Shown here piece after piece: positions 7,525 through 61,114 of a stretch of DNA of 64,000 bases; the first letter of the stretch is position 1, and each line of letters opens with the position of its first letter. Where the stretch lies: positions 1 to 64,000 of the forward strand of contig JAABSA010000016.1 of the NCBI GenBank assembly GCA_011390635.1, given 5' to 3'. The DNA comes from Desulfotignum sp. (GTDB lineage: Bacteria > Desulfobacterota > Desulfobacteria > Desulfobacterales > Desulfobacteraceae). Both the position numbers and the translations under genes were made by a program. The notes under the pieces are model-generated. The model was not told the origin of the DNA, ran no database searches, and saw only the letters and a list, made by a program, of their open reading frames with translations.

Positions 7525-7556
7525 CCCGCAGATAACTTTTGGGAAAGGATACGCTC

Positions 7557-10199: not shown

Positions 10200-10229
10200 C
10201 CTTCCGACCCCAACAGTAAAGGACACACA

Positions 10230-10709
10230 ATGAAACAGATTGTCGGTGTTGCAGATATGAAGGTGAGCAATAATCCCGGGGAATCCATTATCACCTATTC
10301 TCTGGGGTCCTGCATCGGACTTGTCATTTATGATCCTGTTGTCAAGGTGGGCGGTATGCTGCACTATATGCTGCCCGACTCTTCCATTGATAAAAACAAG
10401 GCAGCTGCCAGACCCTATATGTTTGCCGATTCCGGCATCCCGCGGCTGTTCAAATCCGCCTATCAGCTGGGGGCTGCCAAGCAGCGCATGAAGGTGTATG
10501 TGGCCGGCGGGGCGGAGATCCTCGACCAGCAGGGCTTTTTCAATATCGGCAAAAGAAATTACATGGCCCTGAAAAAACTGTTTTTTAAAAACAAGGTCAT
10601 GATCTCCCAGCAGGATGTGGGGGGAAATGTCAACCGCACCGTGAGAATCGAGATCGCCACAGGAGATATTTATGTAAAAACGTCCGGATCCGGGGAGGTG
10701 AAAATATGA
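10230..10709 (+). CDS. cheD: CheD receptor glutamine deamidase
   Basis: A 159-residue CheD, which deamidates Gln residues in chemoreceptors and in some bacteria works with CheC-type phosphatases. The catalytic Cys28 lies in YSLGSCIG and His45 in GMLHYMLPD, both at the expected positions. The Shine-Dalgarno AAAGGA lies 8 nt before the ATG. The gene lies 30 nt after cheA and overlaps the following HDOD gene by 4 nt (ATGA), so it belongs to the same operon. The operon has cheD, cheX and cheB but no cheR; the only CheR in the window is at 34424. Confidence 0.96.
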   Translation: MKQIVGVADMKVSNNPGESIITYSLGSCIGLVIYDPVVKVGGMLHYMLPDSSIDKNKAAARPYMFADSGIPRLFKSAYQLGAAKQRMKVYVAGGAEILDQQGFFNIGKRNYMALKKLFFKNKVMISQQDVGGNVNRTVRIEIATGDIYVKTSGSGEVKI

Positions 10710-11554: not shown

Positions 11555-11576
11555 ACACAAAACCCGGGATAAAAAA

Positions 11577-12002
11577 ATGTTATATTCAATTTTGATAGTG
11601 GATGATTCGCTGCCCATGCGTGCGGTGATCAAACGCACCCTCAAGGCGGCAGGCTATGGCGGCTCACATCTGCTGGAAGCGGCCAATGGTGAACAGGCCC
11701 TTGCTTTGATGAAAAACAGCTGGGTGGACCTGGTCATAACCGATTACAATATGCCGGTCATGGACGGCCTGGCCTTTATCAAAGCCATGAAAGAACAGGA
11801 CCTGTTCCAGGACATTCCGGTGGTGGTGGTGTCCACAGAAGGCAACCAGGCCCGGATTGATGAATTTATGAATGCCGGTGCAGCAGGGTATGTCACCAAG
11901 CCCTTTACTGCAGAGGCAATCAGGGATGTAATTGTCACTATTCTTGGAGAAGCGGATTATGAAGACACAACTGATGAAAACGATGACGACTTCGATTTCT
12001 GA
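11577..12002 (+). CDS. cheY: CheY-type single-domain response regulator
   Basis: A 141-residue receiver with the acidic pair in LIVDDSLPMR, the phospho-accepting Asp in LVITDYNMPVMDG, a Thr/Ser switch in VVVSTEG and Lys in VTKPF. It has a short acidic C-terminal tail (DDTTDENDDDFDF-like). The start at 11577 (MLYSILIVDDS) is used because the frame upstream lies inside the HDOD gene. The ribosome site is weak. It should be phosphorylated by the CheA at 7557 and act on the flagellar motor. The next gene, cheX, starts 44 nt before the cheY stop, an unusually long overlap that suggests coupled production of CheY and its phosphatase. Confidence 0.95.
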   Translation: MLYSILIVDDSLPMRAVIKRTLKAAGYGGSHLLEAANGEQALALMKNSWVDLVITDYNMPVMDGLAFIKAMKEQDLFQDIPVVVVSTEGNQARIDEFMNAGAAGYVTKPFTAEAIRDVIVTILGEADYEDTTDENDDDFDF

Positions 12003-12405
12003 AGTCATGGAAACCATGTTTTTTCTACCGGTGGAATTCGGGCAGACAGCTGTATTGTCCCGGACCGGGCTGGATGATAAAGACATCCTGGTCTGCAGGC
12101 TGGCATTTTCAGGTGATATCTGCGGCCATGTGATTCTTGCGGCACCAGAGCCCCTGATCCGGGAGATGGCCGAAAATTTCATGGGAGAACCCCGGGACCA
12201 GTTAACACAGGACCATCTTACCGGTACACTCATGGAACTGCTCAACATGGTCTGCGGCAATGCGTTGCGCTATACACCGGCCAATACCCCCTTTGAACTG
12301 GGCATACCGGAAATGATCGATCCATCAGAAATTGCAGCGGACAGCCAATTTCATATCATTGAGACAGATATGTCAAAACTGGGAATGCTGCTGCAGACAG
12401 AATAA
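11959..12405 (+). CDS. cheX: CheX-like CheY-P phosphatase
   Basis: A 148-residue protein with the CheC/CheX/FliY-type catalytic pattern E-x2-N in MELLNMVCGN. The rest resembles CheX: an N-terminal helix followed by a FSGDICGHVIL strand pair. It begins at 11959, inside the 3' end of cheY, with GGAGAAG 7 nt upstream. It presumably dephosphorylates the CheY made by the overlapping gene. A second CheX-type domain fused to a receiver is at 35298. CheX works as a dimer with two active sites in other bacteria; here only one E-x2-N is seen per chain. Confidence 0.85.
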   Translation: MKTQLMKTMTTSISEVMETMFFLPVEFGQTAVLSRTGLDDKDILVCRLAFSGDICGHVILAAPEPLIREMAENFMGEPRDQLTQDHLTGTLMELLNMVCGNALRYTPANTPFELGIPEMIDPSEIAADSQFHIIETDMSKLGMLLQTE

Positions 12406-13491
<1,086 letters not shown>

Positions 13492-13566: not shown

Positions 13567-15396
13567 ATGGCCCAGAAAATAACGATACCGGCATTTGAAG
13601 ATCTGTTTGATATCCAGGAGATGCAAAACATCCAGGATGCGTTTGCCAATGCGGCAGGAGCGGCTTCCGTCATCACCGATGTCACCGGCCGGGCCATCAC
13701 GACATCCAGCAATGTCTGCCGGCTGTGCCAGAAAATCATAAAAACCACCGATGCCGGCCGGGATGACTGCATCCGCTCCCATGCTGCAATGTCAAAATAT
13801 CACCCCGATGGCCCGGTGGTTCAATCGTGTCTGGGACCGGGATTGTGGAATGCCTCTGTTTTCATAACCATTGCCGGCCGCCACCTGGCCACCTGGATTA
13901 TCGGTCAGGTCAGGGATGAAAATGCAGACATTGGAAAAATGCGGACCTATGGTGAAAAAATCGGTGCGGATCCGGATGCGTTTGCCGATGCACTGGACCA
14001 GGTGACCGCCATGCCGGTGAAACAATTTAAAAATATCAGCCAGGCGCTGTTCCTGATCGCCGATCAGCTGTCGGACCAGGCATACCAGAAATTACAATAC
14101 CAAAAAATTGCATCCAATCTGAAAAAATCAGAAAAACGGCTGCACCAGAAAACCCGGGAACTGCAAACCACCATGGACCATTTAGTGGAAGCCATGGAAA
14201 ACAACAAAGCCATGGAAGCGCGGCTGCGCCAGTCCCAGAAAATGGAAGCCATCGGCACCCTGGCCGGAGGCATCGCCCATGATTTTAACAATATTCTGTT
14301 TCCCATTCTCGGGTTTTCTGAAATGATCATGCAGGATCTGCCGGCCCAAAGCCCTGCGAGAGGCCAGATGCAGTCGGTGATTGACGGAGCAGTCCGGGCC
14401 AGGGAACTTGTCCAGCAGATCCTGACATTCAGCAGCGAAACAGAGCAGGACTGCCGGCCCCTGAAGCTGCAGCTGATTGTAAAAGAGGTACTCAAACTGG
14501 CCAGGGCATCATTACCGACCACCATTAAAATCACCAAAACCATACCACAAGAGGTCGGGATGGTGCTGGCTGATCCCACCCAGATGCACCAGGTTATCTT
14601 GAATCTGATTTCCAATGCACTGCATGCCATGGAGGAAAATGGCGGTGAACTGTCTTTGTCCCTCAGTGAAAAGGATTTTTCAGAAGATGACCTGCCGGCG
14701 TTTGATATGACACCGGGTCCCTATGTGTGCCTGGAAGTGACAGACACAGGCCAGGGCATGGACCCTGAAGTGCTGAAACGTATTTTTGAACCCTATTTTA
14801 CCACCAAGGTCCGGGGCAAAGGGACAGGGCTTGGCCTGGCGGTTGTGCATGGCATTGTAAAAAATCTTGACGGGAAAATCCTCGCCCGCAGCACCAGGGG
14901 AAAAGGCACCACATTCTGCATGTACCTGCCGCGGTACAACAAACCCCATGTCCTGACTGACGTGGAAACAAAAAAAACCATCGTGCCGCACAACGGGCAT
15001 GAGAAAATTTTACTGGTCGATGACGAAAAATCCATATTGGATATGCTTGAAAAAATGCTCTCCCGGTCCGGGTATTGTGTATGTGCCTATGATATGCCCA
15101 AACAGGCCCTCACCTGTTTCACACAGGCACCGTATGATTTTGACCTGGTGATCACAGACATGACCATGCCGGAGATGCCAGGGGATAAATTGGTTGCGGC
15201 CCTCAAAAATGTACGGCCTGATATTCCCGTAATCTTATGCACCGGATGCGCTGAAAATACAGCCATCAGCAAGACAATTGCCGCCAAACCGGATAAAATA
15301 CTGATGAAGCCTGCAGGCAGTGAAGATCTGCTTGCAGGCATCCGATATCTGCTTGACAATTCACAGGAAGATGAATGTAATAAATCCAAAATATAA
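13567..15396 (+). CDS. PocR-domain hybrid histidine kinase with C-terminal receiver
   Basis: A 609-residue kinase. The start at 13567 (MAQKITIPAFEDLFD) follows GGAAGGTGG. The N-terminus (about 15-170) is a PocR sensory domain with Cys-rich motifs (VCRLCQKI, DDCIRSH, QSCLGPG), a family that binds small ligands such as hydrocarbon derivatives. A coiled coil follows, then HisKA with His238 in GGIAHDFNN, HATPase (DTGQGMD, GTGLGLAVV) and a receiver with Asp in LVITDMTMPEM. The kinase half is close to those at 43641 and 47477. It lies 75 nt after cheB and ends 37 nt before a response regulator, its likely partner. There are no membrane segments. Confidence 0.93.
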   Translation: MAQKITIPAFEDLFDIQEMQNIQDAFANAAGAASVITDVTGRAITTSSNVCRLCQKIIKTTDAGRDDCIRSHAAMSKYHPDGPVVQSCLGPGLWNASVFITIAGRHLATWIIGQVRDENADIGKMRTYGEKIGADPDAFADALDQVTAMPVKQFKNISQALFLIADQLSDQAYQKLQYQKIASNLKKSEKRLHQKTRELQTTMDHLVEAMENNKAMEARLRQSQKMEAIGTLAGGIAHDFNNILFPILGFSEMIMQDLPAQSPARGQMQSVIDGAVRARELVQQILTFSSETEQDCRPLKLQLIVKEVLKLARASLPTTIKITKTIPQEVGMVLADPTQMHQVILNLISNALHAMEENGGELSLSLSEKDFSEDDLPAFDMTPGPYVCLEVTDTGQGMDPEVLKRIFEPYFTTKVRGKGTGLGLAVVHGIVKNLDGKILARSTRGKGTTFCMYLPRYNKPHVLTDVETKKTIVPHNGHEKILLVDDEKSILDMLEKMLSRSGYCVCAYDMPKQALTCFTQAPYDFDLVITDMTMPEMPGDKLVAALKNVRPDIPVILCTGCAENTAISKTIAAKPDKILMKPAGSEDLLAGIRYLLDNSQEDECNKSKI

Positions 15397-23333: not shown

Positions 23334-23912
23334 ATGACAGTTGATGACGAAATAATTACGGTGACAGAAGCCGCAAAACTGTGCAAGGTAACCAGGGCGA
23401 CCATATGGAGGTGGATCAAGTCCGGGGCGCTTAAAGCCGGTGCGACTGCCGGTGGTCACTATAGAATATTTCGTGAAGATCTTCACGCTTTCATTACCTC
23501 AAAAGGAATGACAAGCTGCAGTCGAAGCGAGACCAGGAAGCATAAAGTTCTAATTGTTGATGATGATCCGTCAGTACGAAAATTGTTCATTGTGGCATTC
23601 ATGAAAAATGGGTTTGCGGTGGATTCTGCATCAGACGGGTTTGAAGCAGGGATAAAAACCATTCAATTTCAACCGGATATAGTGATTCTTGACCTTTATA
23701 TGCCGAAACTGGATGGGTTTGAAGTCTGCCGGCAGTTAAAAAACAACGACAGCACCTCAAATATAAAGATAGTTGCAGTTTCAGGGCACCAAAATCAAAC
23801 AAACAGAGAAAAAATTTTATCCTGCGGGGCAGATCGTTTTTTTGAAAAATCAGTGGATATCAAGGTTATCATTAGTGAAACAAACAAATTAATCAGGTCG
23901 GAAGAGATGTAA
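23334..23912 (+). CDS. Response regulator with N-terminal excisionase/MerR-like HTH and C-terminal receiver
   Basis: A 192-residue protein. Residues 8-55 (IITVTEAAKLCKVTRATIWRWIKSG and GGHYRIFREDL) form a winged HTH of the excisionase/MerR type. Residues 70-190 are a receiver with VLIVDDDPSVR, Asp in IVILDLYMPKLDG and Lys in FFEKSVD. The order HTH then receiver is the reverse of most response regulators. It lies 28 nt upstream of the hydrogenase large subunit on the same strand and is probably its regulator or part of the same pathway. No kinase is adjacent; the hybrid CheA at 29673 is one possible partner. Confidence 0.9.
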   Translation: MTVDDEIITVTEAAKLCKVTRATIWRWIKSGALKAGATAGGHYRIFREDLHAFITSKGMTSCSRSETRKHKVLIVDDDPSVRKLFIVAFMKNGFAVDSASDGFEAGIKTIQFQPDIVILDLYMPKLDGFEVCRQLKNNDSTSNIKIVAVSGHQNQTNREKILSCGADRFFEKSVDIKVIISETNKLIRSEEM

Positions 23913-23940
23913 TGTATTATCGAATTTTTCAAGGAGTCTT

Positions 23941-25452
23941 ATGAAAGTTGATATTGGTCCCGTAACACGGTTGGAAGGACATCTGAGTATCCATACTACG
24001 GTTGAAAACAATGTGATCACAAAGGCGGAAAGCCTGGGCGAAATGTTCCGGGGATTTGAAGTTTTTCTCCGGGGCAGGGACCCGCTGGATGCACAGCAGA
24101 TCACCCAGAGAATCTGCGGTGTCTGCCCCTATGCCCATGCCATAGCGTCCTCCTATGCCCAGGAAAATGCATACAACCTTGTGGTTCCGGCCAACGGCCG
24201 TATTCTGCATAATTTGATACAAGGGGCAAACCACCTCTTTGATTATTTGCTACATTTTTATCAATTGTCTGCATTGGATTTTGTAGATGTAACCGCCATA
24301 CTTACATATAACGGACCGGATGCTGAAGTAACCGCTCTCAGGGACTGGGTGAAGGCTGAAACCGGCGCAAAATCTCCTTTTCCTGCTGCACCTTTTTTAC
24401 CAAGACTGTCAGGGCGCTATATGTCCGATGCCAAAACAAATATCACTGCCTTGAAACACTATATTGAATCGCTTGAAATTCAAAAAAAGGCCAATAAGGC
24501 CTCAGCCATTTTCGGGGGTAAATTTCCCCATGCCACTGCAATTTTTCCCGGTGGCTGCACCCAGGAGCCCAATATTGATCATATATCCTCATACCGTTCA
24601 TTGATTTCCGATGTTCGGGATTTTATTCACAAAAAATATCTTCCCGATATTCTGGCTGTTGCCGGGGAATTTCCTGAATACTGGCATATCGGCCAGAGCC
24701 GGGGCGGGTTTCTTTCCTTCGGGCTTTTACCGTTTGGGCCCGAGCTTGACAGTAACCGGCTGTTTGCACCTGGTGTGCTGTTGGAAAATACCATCACCCG
24801 GGTCAATTTTGATGCCATCCGGGAGGATGTGAAATATTCCAAATATTCATCCCCGTCCGGTTTGACCGTCAAGGAGGGAGAATTGACCCCGTCGCCCCAT
24901 AAACCCGGGGCCTATTCATGGGTGAAAGCACCGCGGTATCAGGGAAAAGTGATGGAGGTAGGACCTGCAGCCAGAATCCTGGTGGATTACCACCAGAACA
25001 ACAACCCCAAAATCAAACAACTGGTGGATCAGTTTGCCGGTATTGCCGGCATTACGGCTGACAATTTAAATTCCGTGCTGGGCAGACATTTGTGCCGTGC
25101 CATATCTGCCGTGGTCATTGCCGATTTCCTGCTGGAGGAGACGGAACGGATTGATATACAAGCACCGTTCATGGCCCGGTATGACATCCCGGAATCAGGG
25201 GAAGGATTCGGGGCCACGGAAGCATCCCGGGGTGCACTGCTCCATTATATTAAAATTTCAGACTATAAAATCGAAAAATATGAATGCGTGGTGCCCACCA
25301 CCTGGAATTGTTCACCCAGGGACGACCAGGACCAGCCGGGCGCTCTTGAAACCGCATTGGTGGGAACCCGTGTGGAGAACCCTGAAGAGCAGATTGAAGC
25401 CAATCGAATAGTCCATTCTTTTGATCCATGTCTGGCCTGTGCCGTGCATTGA
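23941..25452 (+). CDS. [NiFe] hydrogenase large subunit lacking the C-terminal extension
   Basis: A 503-residue catalytic subunit. The four Ni-Fe ligands are present: Cys59 and Cys62 in RICGVC, Cys497 and Cys500 in DPCLACAVH. The protein stops exactly at the His after the last motif, where maturation endopeptidases normally cut. It therefore needs no C-terminal processing, as in H2-sensing (regulatory) hydrogenases. The N-terminus MKVDIGPVTRLEGHL is typical. It oxidises H2, or senses it, together with the small subunit 54 nt downstream. That subunit has a Tat signal, so the pair is expected in the periplasm. No maturation genes lie in the window. Neighbours are a response regulator upstream and chemoreceptors downstream. 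Confidence 0.96.
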   Translation: MKVDIGPVTRLEGHLSIHTTVENNVITKAESLGEMFRGFEVFLRGRDPLDAQQITQRICGVCPYAHAIASSYAQENAYNLVVPANGRILHNLIQGANHLFDYLLHFYQLSALDFVDVTAILTYNGPDAEVTALRDWVKAETGAKSPFPAAPFLPRLSGRYMSDAKTNITALKHYIESLEIQKKANKASAIFGGKFPHATAIFPGGCTQEPNIDHISSYRSLISDVRDFIHKKYLPDILAVAGEFPEYWHIGQSRGGFLSFGLLPFGPELDSNRLFAPGVLLENTITRVNFDAIREDVKYSKYSSPSGLTVKEGELTPSPHKPGAYSWVKAPRYQGKVMEVGPAARILVDYHQNNNPKIKQLVDQFAGIAGITADNLNSVLGRHLCRAISAVVIADFLLEETERIDIQAPFMARYDIPESGEGFGATEASRGALLHYIKISDYKIEKYECVVPTTWNCSPRDDQDQPGALETALVGTRVENPEEQIEANRIVHSFDPCLACAVH

Positions 25453-25506
25453 CAAGCCGACCCACTATAGAAGGACATTTATTAATTTTTCGCTGAGGAC
25501 AAATTT

Positions 25507-26460
25507 ATGATAGATCGACGAGAATTTCTGAAAATGGCTGCATGTTTAAGCGCCTCTTTTGGTATTACCCAGTTGCCCGGGATTGTTCAGGCAGCCTTGA
25601 AAAAGATAGACCCTGCAGGTGTTCCCAGACTTATCTATCTTCAGGGCCAGTCCTGCACCGGCTGCTCCATTTCTCTTTTGCAGGCGGAATCTCCCAATGC
25701 GGTTTCCATGATCACCCAGTATTCAAAACTGTCTTTTCACGCTGATTTGTCCGCCACATCCGGAAAACAGGCCCTGAATCTCATTGAAGAGTATATCTCA
25801 GGCCGTGCCGGGGAGTATTTTCTGGCAGTTGAGGGCTCCATTCCCTGGGGCATGCCTGAAGCCTGTGTGATCGGAGACAAACCGTTTGCCGATTATTTGA
25901 CAGCTGCTGCAAAGACCATGAGCGGTGCCATAGCAGTGGGCACCTGTGCAACCCATGGCGGTATCCCGGCTGCAGAAGGCAATTTGACCGATGCCGTCAG
26001 TCTGAAAGAGTTCTATAAGCGTAAAAAAATAGATCCCCTGCTGATTGACATCCCGGGATGTTCAGTCCATCCGGACTGGGTATGGAAAACCATCATTCAC
26101 CTGGTACAGGTCGGCCTGCCTGAATTGATCGATGGCCAGCCGAAATTGTTTTTCAGCCGCAGGGTCCATGAACTTTGTCCAAGGTATCATGATTTTCAAC
26201 AGGAAATATTTGCCCGAAAACTGGGAGACAAAGGATGCCTTTTCAAGTTGGGCTGCCTGGGTCCTGAAACCTATGCAGATTGTCCGACACGGTGGTGGAA
26301 CGGTGGACAAACCTGGTGTATCGATGCCAATGCGCCCTGTATCGGCTGTGCATCCCCCTTGTTTGCAGCAAAAAAGAATTTTCCATTTTATACCTCTTTT
26401 ACCCCCGGCGCGGTCGAATTTACCCCCAGCGCGGTCGATACTTCGAAAGGCAAGGAATGA
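25507..26460 (+). CDS. [NiFe] hydrogenase small (Fe-S) subunit with Tat signal
   Basis: A 317-residue electron-transfer subunit. RREFLK at residues 4-9 plus a hydrophobic stretch is a twin-arginine signal, so it is exported folded with the large subunit. The proximal cluster ligands are in CTGC (50, 53), GTCATHGG and PGCSVHPDW. The distal cluster ligands are in HELC, GCLFKLGC. The medial cluster region reads ADCP...WCIDANAPCIGC; the residue after Trp270 is Cys271 where standard uptake enzymes have Pro, so the medial cluster is probably [4Fe-4S]. The C-terminus has no membrane anchor helix and no cytochrome b gene follows. The next gene is a chemoreceptor. GAGGA precedes the ATG. Confidence 0.96.
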   Translation: MIDRREFLKMAACLSASFGITQLPGIVQAALKKIDPAGVPRLIYLQGQSCTGCSISLLQAESPNAVSMITQYSKLSFHADLSATSGKQALNLIEEYISGRAGEYFLAVEGSIPWGMPEACVIGDKPFADYLTAAAKTMSGAIAVGTCATHGGIPAAEGNLTDAVSLKEFYKRKKIDPLLIDIPGCSVHPDWVWKTIIHLVQVGLPELIDGQPKLFFSRRVHELCPRYHDFQQEIFARKLGDKGCLFKLGCLGPETYADCPTRWWNGGQTWCIDANAPCIGCASPLFAAKKNFPFYTSFTPGAVEFTPSAVDTSKGKE

Positions 26461-26584
26461 GACTGAAATTCTTTACACAGCTATCGATACATCATCTTAA
26501 CCGCACTTTTTGTGCTTTTTATGTGGTCGTAGACAGAGCACCACGGGTTTACCCGGGGGAATCAATAATTTAAAGGAGAGGAAC

Positions 26585-27907
26585 ATGTCTGCTTCGCTGG
26601 ACCAGGAGAACGAACCCATATCCGCAGGGTTACAGATTCGTCATAAAATTTTTGCCGGCAGCTTTGGACTATGGATTGCCGCCATGGTTTTGGTTTTGAT
26701 TTCGGTTTTGATCATCATTGCCGTAAAGGGAAAAGGGGCCGGTGCCGAAGGCATGATATTCATCGAAGGGCTTCCAATCATTATTGGTGTGTTATGCGCA
26801 GTATTGGTTCTATTCGGTTATCTGCTGTGGATGCTGGCTGGAAAAATTTCCCGGCCGATCATTGCCTGTTCCGATTTTGCAGTTGAAATCAGCAGGGGAA
26901 ATTATTCTGCGGTCTGCACTATTGAGAATGCCGGCGAGGTGGAGATCATTGCCGGTGTTTTACAGGACCTGGCAGTCACGCTTGATGCAAAAGAGAAAAA
27001 TCATAAACAGTCAGCCTTAGAACAGCAAGAGCTTCATCAGGGTATCAAAGCCAATGCGAACCAATTGCATGAAACCATTGCAGGTCTTTCACAGGCAGCA
27101 GCAGATCTGACAAAAAGGTCTGACAGTATCGCCAAAGAGTCGGGCACAGTTGCTGATGCCACAGAAGAAATGCGTGAGAATATCGCGTCTGTTTCAGAGG
27201 CGGCTGGATATTTACAAAAAAATATGGATTCAATAACCATTGTGACAGATGAAATGATCAGTACCATCGGTGAAATTTCAAAAAATTCCGAAGAGGCCAG
27301 GATGATCACTATGGAGGCGAAGTCCTGCGTCGATAAAGCCTTTGAAAAAATAGAGATTTTAGGCAAGGCGTCAGAAGAAATTACCTCGGTCATCGATACC
27401 ATTGTCGAGATTGCCGAACAGACAAAACTGCTGGCGCTGAATGCTACCATTGAAGCGGCCCGGGCCGGAGAGTCCGGTAAAGGATTTGCCGTTGTTGCCG
27501 GAGAGGTGAAGGATCTGGCTGCCCAGACAAATGAAGCCACCCTTGATATCAAACACAAGATTGAAGCCATGAGCAGTTCTACCCAAAGCACGATCATCGA
27601 GATCAAAAAAATCAATGACGTGACACACAATATGACCAACATTGTAGAAACAATCGCTGCTGCAGTGCAGGAACAGAGTGTTTCCAGCAGGAGTATCGCT
27701 GACAACGTCAGTGGTGCAGTGCTGCAGACAAAAGAGGTCGGTTCCAATGTTGCCCGAACTGCCGCAGCCACGTCGCAAATCACAGATGGCATGAGGAAGG
27801 TCAATGAAAATCTTGCAGAGATACGAAAGGCATTGACTGATATCAACACCGGCTCTGAAGACCTGACAAAGGTGGAACGGCTGATGCGCGGTTCCATTGC
27901 ATCGTGA
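26585..27907 (+). CDS. Methyl-accepting chemotaxis protein with two adjacent membrane helices and almost no periplasmic domain
   Basis: A 440-residue chemoreceptor starting at 26585 after AAAGGAGAGG. TM1 is about residues 25-48 and TM2 about 62-86, joined by a loop of about 13 residues, so there is no room for a periplasmic ligand domain. HAMP-like sequence follows (ISRPIIACSDFAVEISRGNY), then a signalling domain with [21 protein letters not shown]. It comes directly after the hydrogenase small subunit. It may sense through a partner protein, as receptors that use periplasmic binding proteins do, or through its membrane helices. The hydrogenase is the obvious candidate partner. There is no pentapeptide tail. 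The 124-nt gap upstream has only a weak GCAC/GTGC hairpin with a T-run. Confidence 0.93.
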   Translation: MSASLDQENEPISAGLQIRHKIFAGSFGLWIAAMVLVLISVLIIIAVKGKGAGAEGMIFIEGLPIIIGVLCAVLVLFGYLLWMLAGKISRPIIACSDFAVEISRGNYSAVCTIENAGEVEIIAGVLQDLAVTLDAKEKNHKQSALEQQELHQGIKANANQLHETIAGLSQAAADLTKRSDSIAKESGTVADATEEMRENIASVSEAAGYLQKNMDSITIVTDEMISTIGEISKNSEEARMITMEAKSCVDKAFEKIEILGKASEEITSVIDTIVEIAEQTKLLALNATIEAARAGESGKGFAVVAGEVKDLAAQTNEATLDIKHKIEAMSSSTQSTIIEIKKINDVTHNMTNIVETIAAAVQEQSVSSRSIADNVSGAVLQTKEVGSNVARTAAATSQITDGMRKVNENLAEIRKALTDINTGSEDLTKVERLMRGSIAS

Positions 27908-27994
27908 ATTACCAATAATGACCACTGAATGAAAAGAAAAAAGAATATTTATAATAATTCAATATAAACCGTATCGAAAAAAGAGGTCATGTCC

Positions 27995-29656
27995 ATGATC
28001 AAAAAAGCGTTTATCAATCTACCATTTAACTTGAAAATACTGTTTCCCATTTTCATTGTTCTCTCGTTTTCTCTGGCGATCGGCGGATATCTGATCAGCG
28101 ATTTTGTAAAAAAACAAATGACTGCGACCTACATGGATTCTGTGCAAACCCTGTCCCATTCAATCCAGGAAGGTGTCAAAGGCTCTCTGGAGAGGGGGCA
28201 GATGAAAAATTTTAAAAAACTACTCTCCGATCAGAAAAATATTAAGGGTGTATTGGATGTATCTCTTTATGACCGGCAGGGAAAAATCAACCTGTCATCT
28301 TCTGAACTTGATGCAGTTCCTGCCCATTTGCCGCCTGAAATATTCGACACGTTCGAATCATCGCTTGATCCGCTTCAGGTCATCGAAAACCATACTGTCC
28401 AGATGTATATCCCCCAAAGGGTATCTGCAGATTGTATTCGATGCCACCCCACCTGGAGCCTTGACAAACAAGGCGGCACCATCTCCCTGGTCTATGACCT
28501 GACAGATCTCCATAACGCCCTGGATAAGCAGCATTTTGTGCTGATCATCGGTATTGTTTTTTCCCTTGTTATTGTGAGTCTGTTTGTTCTTTTTATTGCA
28601 AGATCCATTACCAGACCAGTGGTCACCATGACTGAATCCATGGAAAAACTGGCCGCAGGTGATCTTGACGTCGAGATTCCTGCCCAGGGCCAGACAGATG
28701 AAATCGGCAAGATGGCCATGGCGGTTACAATTTTTCAGGAAAATGCAATTGAGAAAATCCAGCTCAAAGAAGAACAGGAAAAGACCAAAATCAGAAATGA
28801 AAAAGAACAAAAAGAGATGATGGAGAAGATGGCAGCATCCTTTCACTCAAGCATAGGAAAAGTGATAAACGCCATTTTAATTGCAGCCGGGGATCTGCAG
28901 GGATCTGCCCGTAAAATGAACGAGACTGCCGATAAAACCCACCAGCAGTCATCATCTGCTGCTGCCGCTGCCAAAGAGACATCGACAAATGTTCTCAGCG
29001 TGGCTTCTGCAACAGAGGAATTAACTGCTTCTGTCGGAGAGATAAGTGAACAGGTCACAAGCTCGTCTGCAATTGCACGAAATGCCGTTACAAAAGCACA
29101 GAGTACCAATGAAATGGTGGGAAGCCTGACCGCAGCCTCCCAGAAAATTGGTGATGTGGTCCAGTTGATCACAGACATTGCAAAACAAACAAACCTTCTG
29201 GCGTTGAATGCAACCATTGAAGCCACCAGGGCCGGAGAAGCCGGCAAGGGATTTGCTGTTGTTGCAAATGAGGTGAAAGAGCTGGCCAAACAGACAACAG
29301 CAGCCACCACGGAAATTGCGGAACATATCAACGGGATACAAAGCGCCACCCAGGGTGCGGTTTCTGCAATCAACGACATCACCGGGATCATTAACAAGAT
29401 TGACGAGATTGCAACAATCATTGCCGCTGCAGTAGAGGAGCAGTCTTCTGTCACCGGCGAAATTGCTGAAAGTACGAACCATGCGGCATCCGGCACCCAG
29501 GAGGTAACCCGGAGCATCACGATTGTTACCCAGGCCGCCAATGAAACCGGACACGCTGCCAGCCAGGTGCTGACGAACGTTGACGAACTGTTAAAACAGG
29601 CCGATGTTTTGCAGGAGGAAGTCGAAAAGTTCTTATCCCAGATCAAGCCGAGCTAA
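27995..29656 (+). CDS. Methyl-accepting chemotaxis protein with a periplasmic c-type haem (CXXCH) domain
   Basis: A 553-residue receptor. The ATG at 27995 is 8 nt after GAGG and is preferred over one 6 nt upstream. TM1 is about 14-34 and TM2 about 182-204. The periplasmic domain between them carries a single CIRCH at residues 147-151, a c-type haem attachment motif, in a setting like DUF3365/Tll0287-type redox domains (it is followed by TISLVYDL near the membrane). HAMP follows, then a coiled coil and a signalling domain with [21 protein letters not shown]. The haem could report redox state, or receive electrons from the hydrogenase encoded upstream. It is 16 nt upstream of cheA. The gap before it is AT-rich and may hold a promoter. 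Confidence 0.92.
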
Positions 29657-29672
29657 GTAAAAAAGGAACAGC

Positions 29673-32600
29673 ATGGTTACTATTGAAGACAATGAAATTT
29701 TCAAAGATTTTATTGAAGAGTCACTGGATCACCTTGACGGTATTGAAGATGACCTGCTCAGCATAGAGGAAGCGGGAGTTACCTGTAACCAGGAGATTGT
29801 TAACAAGGTATTCAGGGCCGTACATACCATCAAGGGAGGCGCAGGATATCTGGGGCTTAAGAATGTCGAAGCACTGGCCCATCACAGTGAAAATGTAATG
29901 GGTAAAATTCGTGCCGGGGAGCTTTTCCCTTCTTCCGACATTATCTCGACACTGCTTGATGCCATGGACACCCTGTCAACCTTGATTCACCGCCATGAAA
30001 GTTCAAATGAAACCGATATTTCCAGCAACCTTACCGCCTTGAATGCAATTTGTCTTGAGGAGAATATTTCATCTCCTGCCCCTCCTTCCCATGTTTCATC
30101 TGAGAGTTCCTCCACCGTTTCAACTGATGAGAAACAAGTATCTGAAGACAATCCTGTTTCAGCATGCTCACCCTTGAAAGACCTTTTGGGTAAAGTAGAA
30201 CAATCAGTGCTGGATGCTTTGTTAAAACAGGGAAGTTTTCTGTATATTTTACAATACAACCTGTTAAAAGACAGTGAATCCAGGGAAAAATATTTTGCAG
30301 AAATCATGGAAGAACTCACAGAAACCGGAGATGTTTTAGCCACTAATATTAATGGTGACGATTCAGCTGAAATGATGCAAAAAAAGGATAACCTGCTCGT
30401 TGTTGTCTTTGCTACCATATTGGAAAATGAGCTGATGGGAGATTTTTTTGATATTGCTCCTGATCAGATTCAGCAGATTACCCCTGACGACCTGGAACAG
30501 GAGTTGCCTCCTGCAGCCGCCCCCCGGCAAGAGCAATCTGTTGAAACCAGTCCGGTTTCACGTCCATCTGTCTCCCCAGCAACAGCTCCTGTGAAAAAAA
30601 TAGAGAACACAAAAAAGACCCTGCCCAAAGATGCTCCGTCTAAACCGGAACAAAAACCCGACAACCTGCGGGTCAATGTCAAACTGCTGGACAGCCTGAT
30701 GACGCTGGCCGGTGAACTTGTTTTGACCAGAAACCAGCTGATCCAGGCAACAGCGTCCCGAAAGGTCAAAGGCATTGACAACATTTCCCAACGTCTCAAC
30801 CTGGTTACCTCAGAGCTTCAAGAAGCCATCATGAGTACCCGCATGCAGCCTGTGGGCAATGTCTTTCATAAATTCAAACGTATTGTCCGGGACCTTTCCA
30901 AAAACATTGGTAAAAAAATCGATCTCATTATCGAAGGAGAAGAGGTTGAACTGGACAAAACCATTATTGAATCCATAGGTGATCCGCTGACGCATCTGGT
31001 CAGGAATGCGGTTGACCATGGTATTGAAAAGCCTGGTGTGCGTATTGCAGCCGGAAAGCAGGAAACAGGTACGTTGCGCATAACAGCCTATCATGAAGGC
31101 GGTCAGGTCATGATTGCCATTGAAGATGACGGCGCCGGTATCAATATTGAACGGGTTAAGGAGAAGGTTTTGACCATGGGATTGCGCGAAGCCTCTGCCC
31201 TGGATGAATTGAGTGATAAAGAAATTGCAAATCTCATCTTTTTGCCCGGCATGTCAACCGCAAAAGAGATCACTGACATTTCCGGCCGGGGAGTCGGGAT
31301 GGATGTGGTGAATACAAACATATCCAAAGTCGGCGGGACTGTCGATATTGACACGATGCCGGGCAAAGGGTCCATCATTACGATCAAACTGCCCTTGACC
31401 CTGGCAATCATACCCAGTTTGATTGTTGCAGTGCAGGAAGAGCGGTATGCGATTCCGCAGGTCAATATGGTAGAGCTGGTGAGAATTCCAGCAGCAAAGG
31501 TCAAGGAACGGATTGAAAAAATCAATTCTGCCATTGTGATGCGCCTGAGAGGGGAGCTTTTGCCGCTGATCAAGCTGACGGATGTCCTTGGCATTAAAGA
31601 CCGATATTACGTATCGGACGAGACTGGTGAGCAGTTTTTGGACAGACGGACGCTCACAGAAGATCGACGGCAGGCGCAATTTGCCGAAACCGCCCGGCAG
31701 GTTGATACAGAAAACCTGTCTTTTGACCCGGAACAACGTGCTTCTGTAGACAGGCGAACCAGCCCGATGAGCGCCTATAACATTCTGGTGGTCTCTGTCG
31801 GAGACTATCATTATGGTCTAATTGTAGACCAGGTGCTTGATTCTGAAGAGATCGTCGTCAAACCCGTCGGCACCCATTTGCGTGACTGCGAGTGCTACGC
31901 GGGCGCATCTGTTCAGGGTGACGGCAAAGTGGCGCTTATTTTAGATATCATCGGCATCAGCAATGTCATGAACCTGCGAACCGTTTCAAAATCTGTGCAG
32001 GAGCAGGCCCTTCAGAGAGCTGAGAGTAAAATATTGAAGGACACCCAGTCTTTTCTGCTCGCCTGTAATGCACCTGACGAGCAGATTGCCATACCTTTGG
32101 ACCTGATTTCAAGAATCGAATCGTGTAAGATAAAAGAGATCAAAATCACCGGGGGTCGAAAAAATATTCAATACCGCGGCGGCCCCCTCCCCTTGTTCAG
32201 TATTGATGAAGTTGCCGATGTCGGTTCACCTGGTACAGACGGCCCAACCTGCTATATTATTGTCTTTTCCATAAGCGGCAAGGAGGTCGGCATTATTGTG
32301 TCGGAGATCATCGATATCATCAGCGGAACCTTTATGATCGATGAAATGACCCACAAGCAGCCGGGAATTATGGGTTCAGCCATTATTAACGACGAAATTA
32401 CGCTGCTGGTAGATCTTTACGGGGTCATTGACACCATTATGCCGGAATGGACAAAAGCAGTAAAATCCAAAGTTACAGAGGACAGTCCAGCAAATATTCT
32501 GGTGGTTGAAGATTCCCCTTTCTTTCTCAACCAGGTTGTGTCGTTCCTCTCCGAGATCGGTTATAAACCCCTGACAGCCACTGACGGGGTACAGGGACTG

Positions 32601-32846
32601 GAGGTATTGAACAGGGAAAAAATTGATATCGTTCTGACCGATATTGAAATGCCCAATATGAATGGGCTGGAGATGGCCAGAAAGATACGCGCCGATGAGC
32701 GGTTCAAGAATTTGCCCATTATCGCAGTCACAAGTCTGGCCGGAGATGCTGCAGAAAAAGAAGGGCTGGATGCCGGTATTAATGATTACCTGGTAAAACT
32801 GGACCGTGAGAAAATAATTGCCTGCGTCAGAAAGTATCTTGTATAA
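29673..32846 (+). CDS. cheA: CheA-receiver hybrid kinase with two CheW-like domains
   Basis: A 1057-residue kinase. P1 at 1-110 has His51 in HTIKGGAGYL. A long acidic, low-complexity linker of about 200 residues follows. P3 lies about 328-420, and HATPase about 430-600 (HLVRNAVDHGIE, DDGAGIN, GRGVGMDVV). The first CheW-like domain, about 600-775, is interrupted by a charged insert rich in DRR near 650-690. A second CheW-like domain spans about 785-915 and a receiver about 935-1055 carries Asp near 989 in IVLTDIEMPNMNG. Such fusions occur in alternative chemosensory systems. The ATG follows AAGGAAC. It is the central kinase of the hydrogenase-linked cluster. Confidence 0.95.
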   Translation: MVTIEDNEIFKDFIEESLDHLDGIEDDLLSIEEAGVTCNQEIVNKVFRAVHTIKGGAGYLGLKNVEALAHHSENVMGKIRAGELFPSSDIISTLLDAMDTLSTLIHRHESSNETDISSNLTALNAICLEENISSPAPPSHVSSESSSTVSTDEKQVSEDNPVSACSPLKDLLGKVEQSVLDALLKQGSFLYILQYNLLKDSESREKYFAEIMEELTETGDVLATNINGDDSAEMMQKKDNLLVVVFATILENELMGDFFDIAPDQIQQITPDDLEQELPPAAAPRQEQSVETSPVSRPSVSPATAPVKKIENTKKTLPKDAPSKPEQKPDNLRVNVKLLDSLMTLAGELVLTRNQLIQATASRKVKGIDNISQRLNLVTSELQEAIMSTRMQPVGNVFHKFKRIVRDLSKNIGKKIDLIIEGEEVELDKTIIESIGDPLTHLVRNAVDHGIEKPGVRIAAGKQETGTLRITAYHEGGQVMIAIEDDGAGINIERVKEKVLTMGLREASALDELSDKEIANLIFLPGMSTAKEITDISGRGVGMDVVNTNISKVGGTVDIDTMPGKGSIITIKLPLTLAIIPSLIVAVQEERYAIPQVNMVELVRIPAAKVKERIEKINSAIVMRLRGELLPLIKLTDVLGIKDRYYVSDETGEQFLDRRTLTEDRRQAQFAETARQVDTENLSFDPEQRASVDRRTSPMSAYNILVVSVGDYHYGLIVDQVLDSEEIVVKPVGTHLRDCECYAGASVQGDGKVALILDIIGISNVMNLRTVSKSVQEQALQRAESKILKDTQSFLLACNAPDEQIAIPLDLISRIESCKIKEIKITGGRKNIQYRGGPLPLFSIDEVADVGSPGTDGPTCYIIVFSISGKEVGIIVSEIIDIISGTFMIDEMTHKQPGIMGSAIINDEITLLVDLYGVIDTIMPEWTKAVKSKVTEDSPANILVVEDSPFFLNQVVSFLSEIGYKPLTATDGVQGLEVLNREKIDIVLTDIEMPNMNGLEMARKIRADERFKNLPIIAVTSLAGDAAEKEGLDAGINDYLVKLDREKIIACVRKYLV

Positions 32847-32889
32847 GGCAGCAGGCTCTGAGACACAATATGTTAACAGAGAGTAAACA

Positions 32890-33333
32890 ATGATGAATGC
32901 AGCTACCGAAAGCCCGGACGTGGAACTCGCCCTTTTTCAAATCGGAGAGATGCTCTGCGGACTTGACACACGCCACGTACAGGAAATCAACCATAATTTT
33001 GAAATCACCCCTGTTCACAGGGCGCCTGATTATGTCCGGGGTGTGATCAACCTTCGCGGTGAAATTGTCACTGTCATTGATCTGCACGAAAAATTCAGCA
33101 TTCCCCCCAGTGAAGTCCATGATGACACCCAGGTTGTGGTTGTCCGTTATGAAGAGGAGTGCATTGCACTGCTGGTGGATACTATTTACGATGTTGTGAA
33201 TGCACACCAATCCGATATTTCCACGCCGCCGTCAAATGTCGACGGGATCAGTGGTTCATTTATCAGCTGCATCTATCGCATGGAAAAAAATCTGGTGGTT
33301 GTTCTTGACCTGGAAGAGCTGCTCAAAAAATAA
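32890..33333 (+). CDS. cheW: CheW coupling protein of the hydrogenase-linked array
   Basis: A 147-residue CheW with the core VELALFQIGEMLCGLDTRHVQEI and YVRGVINLRGEIVTVIDLHEKF. It is clearly divergent from the two near-identical CheW proteins at 5001 and 41049, which fits membership of a separate array with the CheA at 29673. It lies 43 nt after cheA and 8 nt before cheB. Two ATG codons stand in tandem at the start; the first is taken. Confidence 0.95.
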   Translation: MMNAATESPDVELALFQIGEMLCGLDTRHVQEINHNFEITPVHRAPDYVRGVINLRGEIVTVIDLHEKFSIPPSEVHDDTQVVVVRYEEECIALLVDTIYDVVNAHQSDISTPPSNVDGISGSFISCIYRMEKNLVVVLDLEELLKK

Positions 33334-33341
33334 AGGCACAG

Positions 33342-34427
33342 ATGCCCAAACCCTTATTACGAGTCCTGGTGGTTGATGATTCTGTCTTGTACAGGAAAGT
33401 TCTGTCAGAGGTTCTTTCCAGTATTCCAGGTGTTGAAGTTGTCGGAACGGCAACCGACGGCAAAGTTGCGCTGGCAAAAATTGGTCAGCTGAAACCGGAC
33501 ATGCTGACCCTGGACTTTGACATGCCGGAACTGGACGGACTGATGGTCTTGGAACGTGTCAGGGCAGATCATCCTGATCTGAAGACGGTTATGGTTTCGA
33601 CCCATACAAAAAAAGGTGCTGATATAACGGTAAAAGCGCTTGAACTTGGTGCTTTGACCTTTATCACCAAACCCGGGACGGTAACCCCGCTGGAAAGCAA
33701 AACAGTTCTTTTCGAGCAGTTAGCCCCTGTTGTAAAAGAGATCAGGGACCAGATACGCCCCTCACAACATCCGGTCAACACAGACCGGGCCATATCACAG
33801 CCTTTTACCACGGACGCTGCGCTAAGAACAACGACCTCCCGGGCAGGAAGCGGACGTATCCAGATCGTTGCCATCGGTATCTCCACAGGCGGCCCCAAAG
33901 CCTTGACAGAACTTATTCCCTGTCTTCCCGAAGCATTGCGGATCCCTGTTGTCATTGTTCAACACATGCCGTCAGACTTTACTGCAGCATTGGCAAGATC
34001 ACTTGATCAAAAAAGCGCTGTGAAAGTCGTGGAGGCTGAGAATAATATGGCGCTTACGCGCGGCACTGTTTTTATTGCCCCGGGCGGCAGACAGATGAAA
34101 GTTGTAACGGTTTGTGGAAAATCCATGCTTGAAGTCAATGATGATCCGCCGGAGAATCACTGTCAGCCTTCGGTGGACTATTTGTTCCGGTCCATATCAA
34201 AAGTGTATGGAAAACATGCCCTTGGCATCATCATGACCGGTATGGGATCTGACGGGGTTCTCGGCTTGCGGTTGATGAAACGGCTGGGCGCCCGGGTGAT
34301 TGCCCAGGACAGGCAAAGCTGTGTGGTTTTCGGCATGCCGGGTGAGGCCATTAATGCCGGTGTGGTTGACCGTGTTGTGCCGCTTAACCAGATTGCAGCT
34401 GAGATTTTACAGCGGGTCGGGGTATGA
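33342..34427 (+). CDS. cheB: CheB methylesterase of the hydrogenase-linked array
   Basis: A 361-residue CheB with an N-terminal receiver (VLVVDDSVLYRK, Asp in LTLDFDMPELDG) and a C-terminal esterase carrying Ser in IGISTGGP, His in VQHMPSDF and Asp in GMGSDGVLG. It removes receptor methyl groups for adaptation. AAAGG lies 6 nt before the ATG. The stop codon overlaps the start of cheR by 4 nt, so esterase and methyltransferase are made together, unlike in the first chemotaxis operon. Confidence 0.96.
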   Translation: MPKPLLRVLVVDDSVLYRKVLSEVLSSIPGVEVVGTATDGKVALAKIGQLKPDMLTLDFDMPELDGLMVLERVRADHPDLKTVMVSTHTKKGADITVKALELGALTFITKPGTVTPLESKTVLFEQLAPVVKEIRDQIRPSQHPVNTDRAISQPFTTDAALRTTTSRAGSGRIQIVAIGISTGGPKALTELIPCLPEALRIPVVIVQHMPSDFTAALARSLDQKSAVKVVEAENNMALTRGTVFIAPGGRQMKVVTVCGKSMLEVNDDPPENHCQPSVDYLFRSISKVYGKHALGIIMTGMGSDGVLGLRLMKRLGARVIAQDRQSCVVFGMPGEAINAGVVDRVVPLNQIAAEILQRVGV

Positions 34428-35242
34428 AGATACCCATTAAAGCGCTGATGGAGCTGGCCGTTATCGTCCACAGCCACAGTGGTATCGTTCTGAAGAAAAA
34501 CAAAGCCTATCTGATTGAAGACAGACTGCAACCCCTTATGGAAGAATATTGCCTTTCTTCTTTTGACGACCTGATTGCCAAAGCAAAGACATCATCACAA
34601 TTGACCGGCCATATCGTGGATCGAATGACCACAAACGAAACCTCTTTTTTTCGCGATAAGCGGCCCTTTGTCCTCTTAAAAGAAAAGTTACTGCCGGACT
34701 GGCAGGCCAACCAGAGACAGAAACGCAGTCAGTTGAACATCTGGAGTTGTGCATGCGCAACCGGCCAGGAAGTGTATTCCATTGCCATAACCCTTATGGA
34801 GTATTTCAAAGGAAATTTTTCCAGCCATACTGTCAAAATCAAAGCCTCTGATATCTCAGATTCCGCCATCGTAAAAGCAAGCCGCGGCCTTTACTCCAAT
34901 TATGAAGTCAGCCGGGGGTTGAGCGATGCTCACTTGAATAGATATTTTACCCGGGAAGACCCATACTGGAAAATAAAAGATGAATTGAGGAGCATGGCGT
35001 ATTTTGAAAAACTGAACCTGCTGCAGCCGAAAATTGAATATGGAAAATTTGATATCATTTTTTGCCGGAATGTGGCGATATATTTCAGTAAAGCAGACCG
35101 CCAGAGACTGTTTCAAAACCTGTCAGCCTGCTTGAATGACAACGGCGTCCTGATCATCGGCGCCACTGAAACGCTGTTTGATATCAATGAACAATTAAAA
35201 CGGGTGGATTGCGGCGGCACGGCATATTATTGTCACAAATAG
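34424..35242 (+). CDS. cheR: CheR chemoreceptor methyltransferase
   Basis: A 272-residue CheR with the N-terminal helical domain and a SAM-binding domain showing TTNETSFFRD, WSCACATGQEVYSIAI, KASDISDSAI and FCRNVAIYF. It methylates receptor glutamates. It is the only CheR in the window, so it may also serve receptors of the other arrays, two of which end in DFKNF, a possible CheR/CheB docking tail; the two receptors of its own operon have no such tail. It ends the plus-strand operon. The convergent gene begins 55 nt beyond. Confidence 0.96.
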   Translation: MKIPIKALMELAVIVHSHSGIVLKKNKAYLIEDRLQPLMEEYCLSSFDDLIAKAKTSSQLTGHIVDRMTTNETSFFRDKRPFVLLKEKLLPDWQANQRQKRSQLNIWSCACATGQEVYSIAITLMEYFKGNFSSHTVKIKASDISDSAIVKASRGLYSNYEVSRGLSDAHLNRYFTREDPYWKIKDELRSMAYFEKLNLLQPKIEYGKFDIIFCRNVAIYFSKADRQRLFQNLSACLNDNGVLIIGATETLFDINEQLKRVDCGGTAYYCHK

Positions 35243-35297: not shown

Positions 35298-36179
35298 TCA
35301 GCCCAGTATGGCAGAGACCCGTTCGATAAGCTGCTCCGGCTCAACCGGTTTTACCAGATATCCTGATACTTTTAATTGTTTTGCTTTGATAATTTCATCT
35401 TTTCTGGAGCTTGAAGAAAGAATAATAAATTTTGAATTACCATCAAATTCTCTGATTTTTTCAATGGCTTCAAAACCACCCATTTCAGGCATATTAATAT
35501 CCATGAGTGTTAAATGGGGAGTAAATGTTCGATAAACTCTTGCTCCCACTTCACCATTTTCCGCCTCTTTGATCACAGCGCCTTCTGCAACAAGAATCTG
35601 GGAGATAATATTGCGCATGACTCTTGAATCATCAACAAGCAGTATTTTTCTGCCCTTGATGTTCTTTTCCGCTTTTTCATCGAAATATACTCTTAAAATA
35701 ATCTGTTCCGTTGACTTTTCTGCTTCTGTTTCCGCAACATCAAGGCTGATGATATACCCCTGCAAAGACTTTGAAGCGGCACTTTTGTAACTTTTCTTGT
35801 AAACAGGGGTGCCGAATTTCACTTTCAAACCGATACTGTCCCAGTCTGATATGGTTCGTCCAACCACTACATTTAAAAATTCATTCAGCAGATCGGTGGA
35901 ATCATCACCGATTTCTGTAAGTTTTCCCATTCCAAGTCTTTCTGCAATCGCAGAAGCAAGTTTTAAGGCATCCTGAACGCTGTTAAATGTCAGGACAAAT
36001 TCCCCTTCAACCTTTTTGTCATAGTCGGTATAGGATATAATATGAGCAAATTGTAAAATATTCTTTTCCTTGAGAACCTGTCTTTTTTCTGAACCTGTAA
36101 CCTTCAGGCGGGTCATTTGCTCTATGCTTGATTTATAGGCATCAATCAAAATATTGATGTGTTCATTGAACTGGGTCAT
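35298..36179 (-). CDS. CheX-like phosphatase fused to a receiver domain
   Basis: A 293-residue protein. The start at 36179 (MTQFNEHINILIDAYKSS) follows GGAGA. The N-terminal about 165 residues resemble CheX, with the E-x2-N catalytic pattern in NEFLNVVVG. The C-terminal receiver (about 170-290) has ILLVDDSRVMRN, Asp in LTLMDINMPEMGG and Lys in YLVKPVE. A phosphatase and its substrate-type domain in one chain could self-limit phosphate flow or act as a phosphate sink. It is convergent with cheR, transcribed from its own minus-strand promoter region at 36180-36240 (TTGATA and an AT-rich -10 are visible). Confidence 0.85.
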   Translation of the reverse strand: MTQFNEHINILIDAYKSSIEQMTRLKVTGSEKRQVLKEKNILQFAHIISYTDYDKKVEGEFVLTFNSVQDALKLASAIAERLGMGKLTEIGDDSTDLLNEFLNVVVGRTISDWDSIGLKVKFGTPVYKKSYKSAASKSLQGYIISLDVAETEAEKSTEQIILRVYFDEKAEKNIKGRKILLVDDSRVMRNIISQILVAEGAVIKEAENGEVGARVYRTFTPHLTLMDINMPEMGGFEAIEKIREFDGNSKFIILSSSSRKDEIIKAKQLKVSGYLVKPVEPEQLIERVSAILG

Positions 36180-36360
36180 AACGTCTCCAAACGTGTAGTC
36201 AAAATATATACTTTTACAGAAAATGCTGTTTTTTATCAAGTGATAATTCCAGCGCCGGATATTTGCCATAAGCATGACAGGTTTTCGACCATTCGCTCCA
36301 GCACTCTGTCTCCGGCCCCGCCCGTGGTGGCAATCTTCTGTTTTAATCCCCTGCCATCTT

Positions 36361-60328: not shown

Positions 60329-60330
60329 TA

Positions 60331-61110: not shown

Positions 61111-61114
61111 GACT

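Follow-up and report, generated by a model that had tools for sequence, protein, structure and literature searches.

Gene content of the locus

The window analyzed in this study is a stretch of 64,000 nucleotides from Desulfotignum sp. (contig JAABSA010000016.1, denoted G000:C13, of a 4.09 Mb assembly that is 96.4% complete). Its closest named relatives, from a large-subunit scan of named genomes, are metagenome-assembled genomes of Desulfotignum and Desulfobacula. Nine genes on the plus strand form an operon that encodes an [NiFe] hydrogenase, two methyl-accepting chemotaxis proteins (MCPs) and a set of Che proteins, and we argue that this operon is probably a periplasmic H2-sensing chemoreceptor system in which the hydrogenase reduces a haem on the second MCP. 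The nine genes and a tenth that faces them are as follows (Pfam matches in parentheses).

23334–23912, plus strand: HTH_17–receiver protein (PF12728 and PF00072)
23941–25452, plus strand: [NiFe] hydrogenase large subunit (PF00374, 500.5 bits)
25507–26460, plus strand: [NiFe] hydrogenase small subunit (PF01058; PF14720, 95.2 bits)
26585–27907, plus strand: MCP1, with an MCP signalling domain (PF00015; scan run from an upstream TTG at 26510)
27989–29656, plus strand: MCP2, a haem-type receptor with a periplasmic sCache-like domain containing CIRCH, a HAMP domain and an MCP signalling domain (PF00672 and PF00015)
29673–32846, plus strand: CheA–receiver hybrid with three CheW-like stretches (Pfam)
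32890–33333, plus strand: CheW (PF01584)
33342–34427, plus strand: CheB (PF01339 and PF00072)
34424–35242, plus strand: CheR (PF01739)
35298–36275, minus strand: CheX-like/receiver protein (PF00072, 90.1 bits; PF13690 CheX, 26.6 bits against a cut-off of 27)

The original prediction, made from the sequence of the window, had placed the nine genes at these positions on the plus strand with gaps of 124 nucleotides or less, and both statements agree with the open reading frame coordinates and the Pfam matches: with the start of MCP1 taken as ATG 26585, the gaps range from −4 to 124 nucleotides. It had also described several overlapping starts, of which a single one was found, that of CheR, which overlaps CheB by 4 nucleotides. 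The absence of cytochrome b, ferredoxin-type and maturation genes was confirmed with Pfam for all nine genes; besides the hydrogenase, the operon holds regulatory and che genes and no redox-partner gene as in group 1 enzymes. The genome has one match each to HypD and to a HycI-type protease, both on another contig beside an [NiFeSe] hydrogenase. This enzyme (G000:C34:6717–8652) is the other hydrogenase match of the genome, contains an in-frame TGA and is followed by the sole HycI-type protease match.

MCP1 has two transmembrane helices, as judged by eye from the sequence, and almost no periplasmic part; orthologues at 70–82% occur in loci L034, L035, L036, L039 and L044. MCP2 is an MCP by its signalling domain (PF00015, 102.8 bits). 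The HTH_17–receiver protein is possibly the transcriptional output of the pathway. Only some relatives have one (88% in L034 and 61% in L036), and none was called in L035, L039 or L044, the contig of the last stopping within the large subunit. The CheX-like/receiver gene is kept beside the operon in L035, L036, L039 and L044, and this synteny suggests that its product belongs to the pathway.

Conservation across genomes

Relatives of the locus were sought with the large subunit in 145 genomes, the window's included, and stretches of up to 20 kb were inspected. The search returned a tight group with 70–93% identity, an outer group of six with 45–49% identity and ordinary enzymes. The window-type operon is present in five other genomes (L034, L035, L036, L039 and L044; the contig of L034 stops within CheB), and a short form consisting of the large subunit, the small subunit and the receptor is present in six more (L037, L038 and L040–L043). 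Two exceptions in the tight group are L049, truncated by the end of its contig, and L050 (G055, 14005–14790), a decayed sensory large subunit with an internal TAG and with no small subunit or sensor nearby. Receptors accompany four of the six members of the outer group (L045, L046, L047 and L052). In the other two, L048 and L051 (46% and 43% identical in a separate comparison), the small subunit comes first, the large subunit has a C-terminal extension and there is no sensor. Pfam detected an MCP signalling domain in ten of these receptors, each of which carries the CIRCH motif.

Named genomes, some of which overlap the set of 145, were then scanned with an alignment of 14 large subunits, all adjoining a sensor-MCP; L048 and L051 were excluded from this query, which is a declared bias, and the best 80 of 199 relatives were kept. 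In six-frame scans with hidden Markov models, the sensor domain lay within 3 kb of the hydrogenase in 74 of the 80 loci, and in 72 it shared a single frame with the MCP domain. Among the six remaining loci, four are at contig ends (L087, L093, L111 and L121), L129 has the small subunit first and a C-terminal extension, and L106 is a real absence. The hosts include members of Desulfobacterota, Planctomycetota, Verrucomicrobiota, Spirochaetota, Calditrichota, Chloroflexota, Hydrogenedentes, Riflebacteria and Magnetococcales, with phyla taken from the record names of what are mostly metagenome bins, in which misbinning is possible; the label 'Myxococcota' on records of 'Deltaproteobacteria bacterium' is a naming artefact. 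Among the hosts are the isolates Desulfobacter vibrioformis DSM 8776 and Desulfocarbo indianensis SCBM.

The controls were 20 ordinary hydrogenases encoded in 18 genomes of this set; for 11 of the 20, the genome encodes a sensory-type enzyme as well. None of the 20 has the sensor domain nearby. A small subunit was identified in 19 of them and always precedes the large subunit. At the control locus L134, an MCP domain is encoded 5.6 kb off, on the opposite strand. The operon is therefore real and not a chance string of genes, because the order large subunit–small subunit–receptor is found again in relatives and across other phyla, where the original prediction had asked for at least one relative that keeps it, and is absent from the 20 controls. 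The operon as a whole fared less well as a conserved unit: CheA lies within 6 kb in just 13 of the 80 loci, so that the full set of che genes seen in the window is the less common arrangement and the conserved core is the two subunits and the receptor.

The association was also examined from the receptor side, with a profile of 54 sensor rows collected from around related hydrogenases plus the row of the window (again a declared bias) and flanks of 1.5 kb, so that a hydrogenase farther off would escape. In the 145 genomes (E ≤ 1e-8) the profile found 20 sites, 17 of which, the window's included, are beside a hydrogenase, a count that may include loci already in the profile; one of the other three is at a contig end (G007). 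A phylum sample of 395 genomes (E ≤ 1e-15) gave 31 sites in 23 genomes; 29 of these were examined, the others being the window itself and a single site that was not retrieved. Both hydrogenase genes are directly upstream of the sensor domain in 20 of the 29, or in 16 of 25 after removal of four loci repeated from the profile, and all 20 upstream large subunits end exactly at the final His. Within the genus of the window the presence of the sensor is patchy: among 13 genomes, several of them incompletely assembled, it was found in G000, in G003 and as a contig-edge copy in G007.

The hydrogenase

All four nickel-ligating cysteines are present in the large subunit of the window and are invariant across 14 aligned orthologues. 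The chain ends DPCLACAVH, with no extension. The same stop at the final His is found in 77 of the 80 relatives; in L087 and L099 the sequence continues into undetermined bases, and L129 has a true extension. A C-terminal extension of 15–16 residues is present in 20/20 controls.

The small subunit carries a motif of the twin-arginine translocation (Tat) type, RREFLK, which predicts export; RRx[FLY] occurs near the start in 79 of 86 rows, the window included, three of the 86 being non-sensory. Twelve ligand residues fit three [4Fe–4S] clusters, being assigned to the individual clusters by analogy with the family, and the ligands are retained nearly without exception, those of the distal cluster included. 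The fourth medial-cluster position is Cys in nearly all of the sensor-linked rows, in HoxB and in 6/6 [NiFeSe] enzymes, and Pro in 12/12 Hyn, HoxK and HyaA. In L127, Asp replaces one of the proximal-cluster cysteines.

The gas channel is of the ordinary type. Val61 is present in 77 of 82 rows (two Ile, three gaps) and Leu109 in 80 (two gaps), and Val61, Leu109 and His66 correspond to Ile, Phe and Gln in HoxC. The nearest solved relatives of the hydrogenase are catalytic periplasmic [NiFeSe] and [NiFe] enzymes. A phylogeny of 117 large subunits separates all 82 sensor-linked rows from 24 ordinary rows and from HyaB, HybC and HoxG; the tree is from a quick search with SH-aLRT support only (88 for the ordinary side) and HoxC, a long branch, as the outgroup. 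Seven rows without a sensor are on the sensor side, namely the contig-end loci L049, L087, L093, L111 and L121, the decayed L050 and L106. L114 is placed loosely at the base.

The sensor domain of the receptor

Neither Pfam nor the PDB sequences contained a convincing match to the sensor domain, and a fold search was therefore needed. The AlphaFold2 model of MCP2 residues 1–205 is a single Cache fold with a mean confidence (pLDDT) of 92.9. In the model, strand 136–144 is followed by helix 147–152 and strand 161–170, and the CxxCH motif (149–153) would thus lie on a short helix ahead of the last strand, the arrangement of sCache_heme (DUF3365/Tll0287) domains, which carry CxxCH at this place (PMC12889525). 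The haem domain Tll0287 matches the model with a Z score of 9.3, and the Foldseek matches include 3b42, 3b47 and 5b82, with E values of 4.5e-5 for GSU0935 and 9.6e-4 for GSU0582. The sensor of the window scores 18.1 bits with PF21563, below the cut-off of 27, and has no listed match to PF11845; at E ≤ 1 these families match 29 and 25, respectively, of 55 sensor rows, with best E values of 2.2e-4 and 1.9e-3.

CxxCH and Met72 occur together in 77/77 rows and are jointly lost in four planctomycete rows; this loss falls within one clade and hence counts as one event, and it is what would be expected if Met72 were an axial ligand. All 29 rows from the phylum sample, including the orphans, have both. 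The receptor would carry a covalently bound haem c. The receptors that lack both lie beside the hydrogenase in L116, L118, L127 and L130. Two sensor-MCPs accompany one hydrogenase in L081 (6537–10529, divergent flanking copies) and L123 (12548–15678, tandem copies), and in L066 (14305–16875, minus strand) the gene for a protein of 856 residues, whose CxxCH sensor domain is related, is convergent with the receptor gene.

Co-variation of the hydrogenase and the receptor

Distance correlations over 69 loci were 0.85 between the small subunit and the sensor domain and 0.82 between the large subunit and the sensor domain, and 0.21 between the large subunit and the MCP output, which shares its polypeptide with the sensor. 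The output correlation was 0.62 within receptors of the HAMP type (40 loci) and 0.46 within those without HAMP (29 loci). Over the 69 loci, the partial correlation of the small subunit with the sensor given the large subunit was 0.42, versus 0.08 for the large subunit given the small subunit, and none of 500 permutations matched the observed value; trimmed alignments gave the same picture. The presence of HAMP changes at least 13 times over 79 rows on the hydrogenase tree (local hidden Markov model), the mean of shuffled data being 26. The sensor thus tracks the hydrogenase and the MCP output does so much less, so that the travelling unit is the hydrogenase with the sensor domain. Since the small subunit accounts for variation in the sensor that the large subunit leaves unexplained, it is the likelier contact with the sensor, and it is also where electrons would exit.

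Proposed mechanism

In the mechanism that we propose, the Tat-exported hydrogenase would oxidize H2 in the periplasm, and the electrons would pass through the three [4Fe–4S] clusters to the surface of the small subunit and on to a c-type haem in the periplasmic sCache-like domain of the receptor. Reduction of the haem, with Met72 as its probable axial ligand, would shift the sensor domain, and this shift would alter the activity of CheA via the MCP. The receptor of the window would be served by its own CheA–receiver hybrid, CheW, CheB and CheR; receptors with no CheA nearby probably feed an array encoded elsewhere. From these comparisons we infer haem attachment, electron transfer, the direction of the signal and the behavioural output. 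The earlier proposal that the hydrogenase signals to the receptor gains support at the sequence level, in that the co-variation, the missing maturation peptide, the cluster ligands and the conservation of CxxCH with one Met all fit it. For comparable haem domains of Geobacter MCPs, the potentials are −156 and −251 mV, and an axial Met switches with the redox state and ligates the haem in its reduced form (PMC8396549); by analogy, reduction of the haem by H2 would be downhill.

Beyond the window, the evidence leans towards a family of enzyme-driven chemoreceptors in several phyla with electrons as the effective ligand, in which a periplasmic [NiFe] hydrogenase free of maturation cleavage feeds the haem of an MCP for true H2 taxis and the sensor module has repeatedly been fitted to different MCP outputs. 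The output may be flagellar: of 16 genomes tested, 14 have FlhA, among them that of the window. Desulfotignum phosphitoxidans has been described as having no flagellar structural proteins (PMC4046663).

Several observations weigh against this interpretation. Two of the 20 sensor sites in the 145 genomes are orphans, and for nine of the 29 in the phylum sample the 1.5-kb flanks contain no hydrogenase; since these nine also have Met72, this residue is a marker of the haem domain rather than of coupling to a hydrogenase. Conversely, L106 has a hydrogenase of this type with no sensor gene nearby. Although no row of the first set lacks Trp156, just 14 of the 29 rows examined later retain it, so that only CxxCH and Met72 serve as evidence of a haem site, and the four planctomycete receptors that adjoin a hydrogenase with no haem motif mean that haem is not required in every version. 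The best fold match is WalK (4ywz, Z = 15.3), which is not known to bind haem. The superposition of GSU0935 and GSU0582 on the model is poor (root-mean-square deviation of 12–14 Å, TM-score by query of 0.31–0.35), and the two are not among the 50 matches listed in the Z-score search; their crystal structures are swapped dimers (PMC3460858). In the subset with no HAMP (29 loci), the preference for the small over the large subunit is nearly gone (0.28 versus 0.22), and the N-terminal domain of flagellin was not found in the genome of the window. Finally, signalling haem-Cache domains acted as NO sensors in a 2026 preprint (PMC12889525).

Alternative explanations

The planctomycete versions, in which a hydrogenase and a sensor-MCP persist with neither CxxCH nor Met72, are what would be expected if turnover of H2 changed the conformation of the hydrogenase and the signal were passed by binding to the receptor, with the haem secondary or structural. 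HoxBC is held to act in this way by interacting with the kinase HoxJ (PMC6978683), and the co-variation of the sensor and the small subunit suits docking as well as electron transfer. However, CxxCH and the probable axial Met are kept in all of the other rows (77/77 and the further 29/29), and the distal-cluster ligands are retained, as they should be if this cluster is the exit for electrons. Signalling by contact appears unlikely. It is also conceivable that the true ligand is NO or the ambient redox state and that the hydrogenase keeps the haem ferrous, or drains it, in which case H2 would set the sensitivity and not be the stimulus. The binding of NO by a signalling haem-Cache domain (PMC12889525) is in keeping with this, as is the prismane-family gene that adjoins the hydrogenase in L046. 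However, such a neighbour was seen in this one locus and was sought in no other, and the same preprint, in its available text, calls sCache–haem domains widespread and does not mention hydrogenase, so that NO sensing seems to need none; we regard this gating role as distinctly improbable. The gene in L046 (14028–16019) is directly upstream of the hydrogenase, and its host (G107) has no FlhA match, which is possibly a hint of a link to NO and of a non-flagellar output.

Least probable, in our estimation, is an ordinary periplasmic uptake hydrogenase that merely shares an operon with energy-taxis genes and delivers its electrons to cytochrome c3 or another carrier. Its catalytic nearest solved relatives and its intact active-site ligands would suit such an enzyme, whereas the neighbouring sensor across phyla (0/20 controls), the separate side of the tree, the absence of the maturation peptide that 20/20 controls have and a sensor domain that tracks the hydrogenase through the changes of HAMP would not. 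An ordinary group 1 uptake enzyme was rejected on the tree position and the missing maturation peptide.

Relation to known hydrogenases and chemoreceptors

HydDB distinguishes respiratory [NiFe] group 1, the kinase-linked H2 sensors of group 2b and the [FeFe] group C2, which is putatively chemotactic (PMC5037454). The system of the window resembles group 2b (HoxBC/HupUV with HoxJ) in its proposed H2-sensing role and adjoining signalling gene, in a large subunit with no C-terminal extension (HoxC ends DPCMVCTVH) and in the Cys at the fourth medial-cluster position of HoxB; the H2 sensor of R. eutropha has a medial [4Fe–4S] cluster (PMC5665086). However, HoxBC is cytoplasmic with a histidine kinase partner (PMC6978683) and has a narrow gas channel (PMC5665086), whereas the small subunit of the window has a Tat-type motif, the partner is an MCP whose periplasmic domain is of the haem type, and the large subunit carries Val61, Leu109 and His66. 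Membership of group 2b was rejected on the channel residues, the export signal and the MCP partner. The closest sequences are those of group 1 [NiFe] and [NiFeSe] enzymes (Hys and Hyn), with which the Tat-type small subunit with PF14720 and the cluster ligands are shared; unlike these, the large subunit precedes the small subunit, there is neither a maturation peptide nor a redox-partner gene, and a receptor gene adjoins. A soluble periplasmic HydAB has been named in D. phosphitoxidans (PMC4046663).

A link between a hydrogenase and an MCP has been proposed for [FeFe] group C2, listed as 'Chemotactic (putative)' (HydDB, PMC5037454; PMC9431212), so that the idea of a hydrogenase-coupled chemoreceptor has a precedent. 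These are enzymes of an unrelated metalloenzyme class; the large subunit of the window belongs to PF00374 and is not an H-cluster protein, and a periplasmic haem relay is not part of the C2 description in the available text of either paper. The statement in the original prediction that no such coupling had been described is thus qualified by the putative [FeFe] link and stands for [NiFe] enzymes: no description of an [NiFe] hydrogenase coupled to an MCP was found in the full-text literature searched, with subscription papers mostly outside its scope. In an automated neighbourhood survey (PMC12727194), 87 genes in the vicinity of [NiFe] large subunits form an MCP cluster; neither 'cluster 29' nor 'chemotactic' occurs in its available text. 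Among chemoreceptors, the closest parallels are Geobacter GSU0582 and GSU0935, Desulfovibrio DcrA and sCache_heme proteins, in which a periplasmic Cache/PAS-like CxxCH domain on an MCP is proposed to sense redox (PMC8396549). The present domain differs from sCache_heme in its score below the PF21563 cut-off and in having no listed PF11845 match, and the word 'hydrogenase' occurs zero times in the available text of PMC8396549 and PMC12889525 on haem receptors. The best reading of the sequences would be a sensory hydrogenase that differs from the known ones in hydrogenase group, compartment and output.

Other features of the window

A second che cluster (5461–13491) encodes an MCP with four-helix-bundle and zinc-binding domains, CheA (7539–10199), an HDOD protein and CheB; the genome has three CheA matches in all. 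Two coenzyme A-transferase subunits are convergent with a pyruvate-formate-lyase-like glycyl radical enzyme (59351–63475), and a carbon–nitrogen hydrolase is fused to a GNAT acetyltransferase (49511–51067, minus strand).

Significance

H2 is a central currency among anaerobes, and an [NiFe] receptor for swimming in an H2 gradient was not found described in the literature searched. The isolates among the hosts make the H2-sensing reading testable. If it is true, the receptor would read the turnover of an enzyme rather than a bound ligand, and the hydrogenase with its sensor would be a modular H2-responsive part. Furthermore, hydrogenases that similarity places with respiratory group 1 would be H2 sensors, which would change how H2 metabolism is read from genomes.

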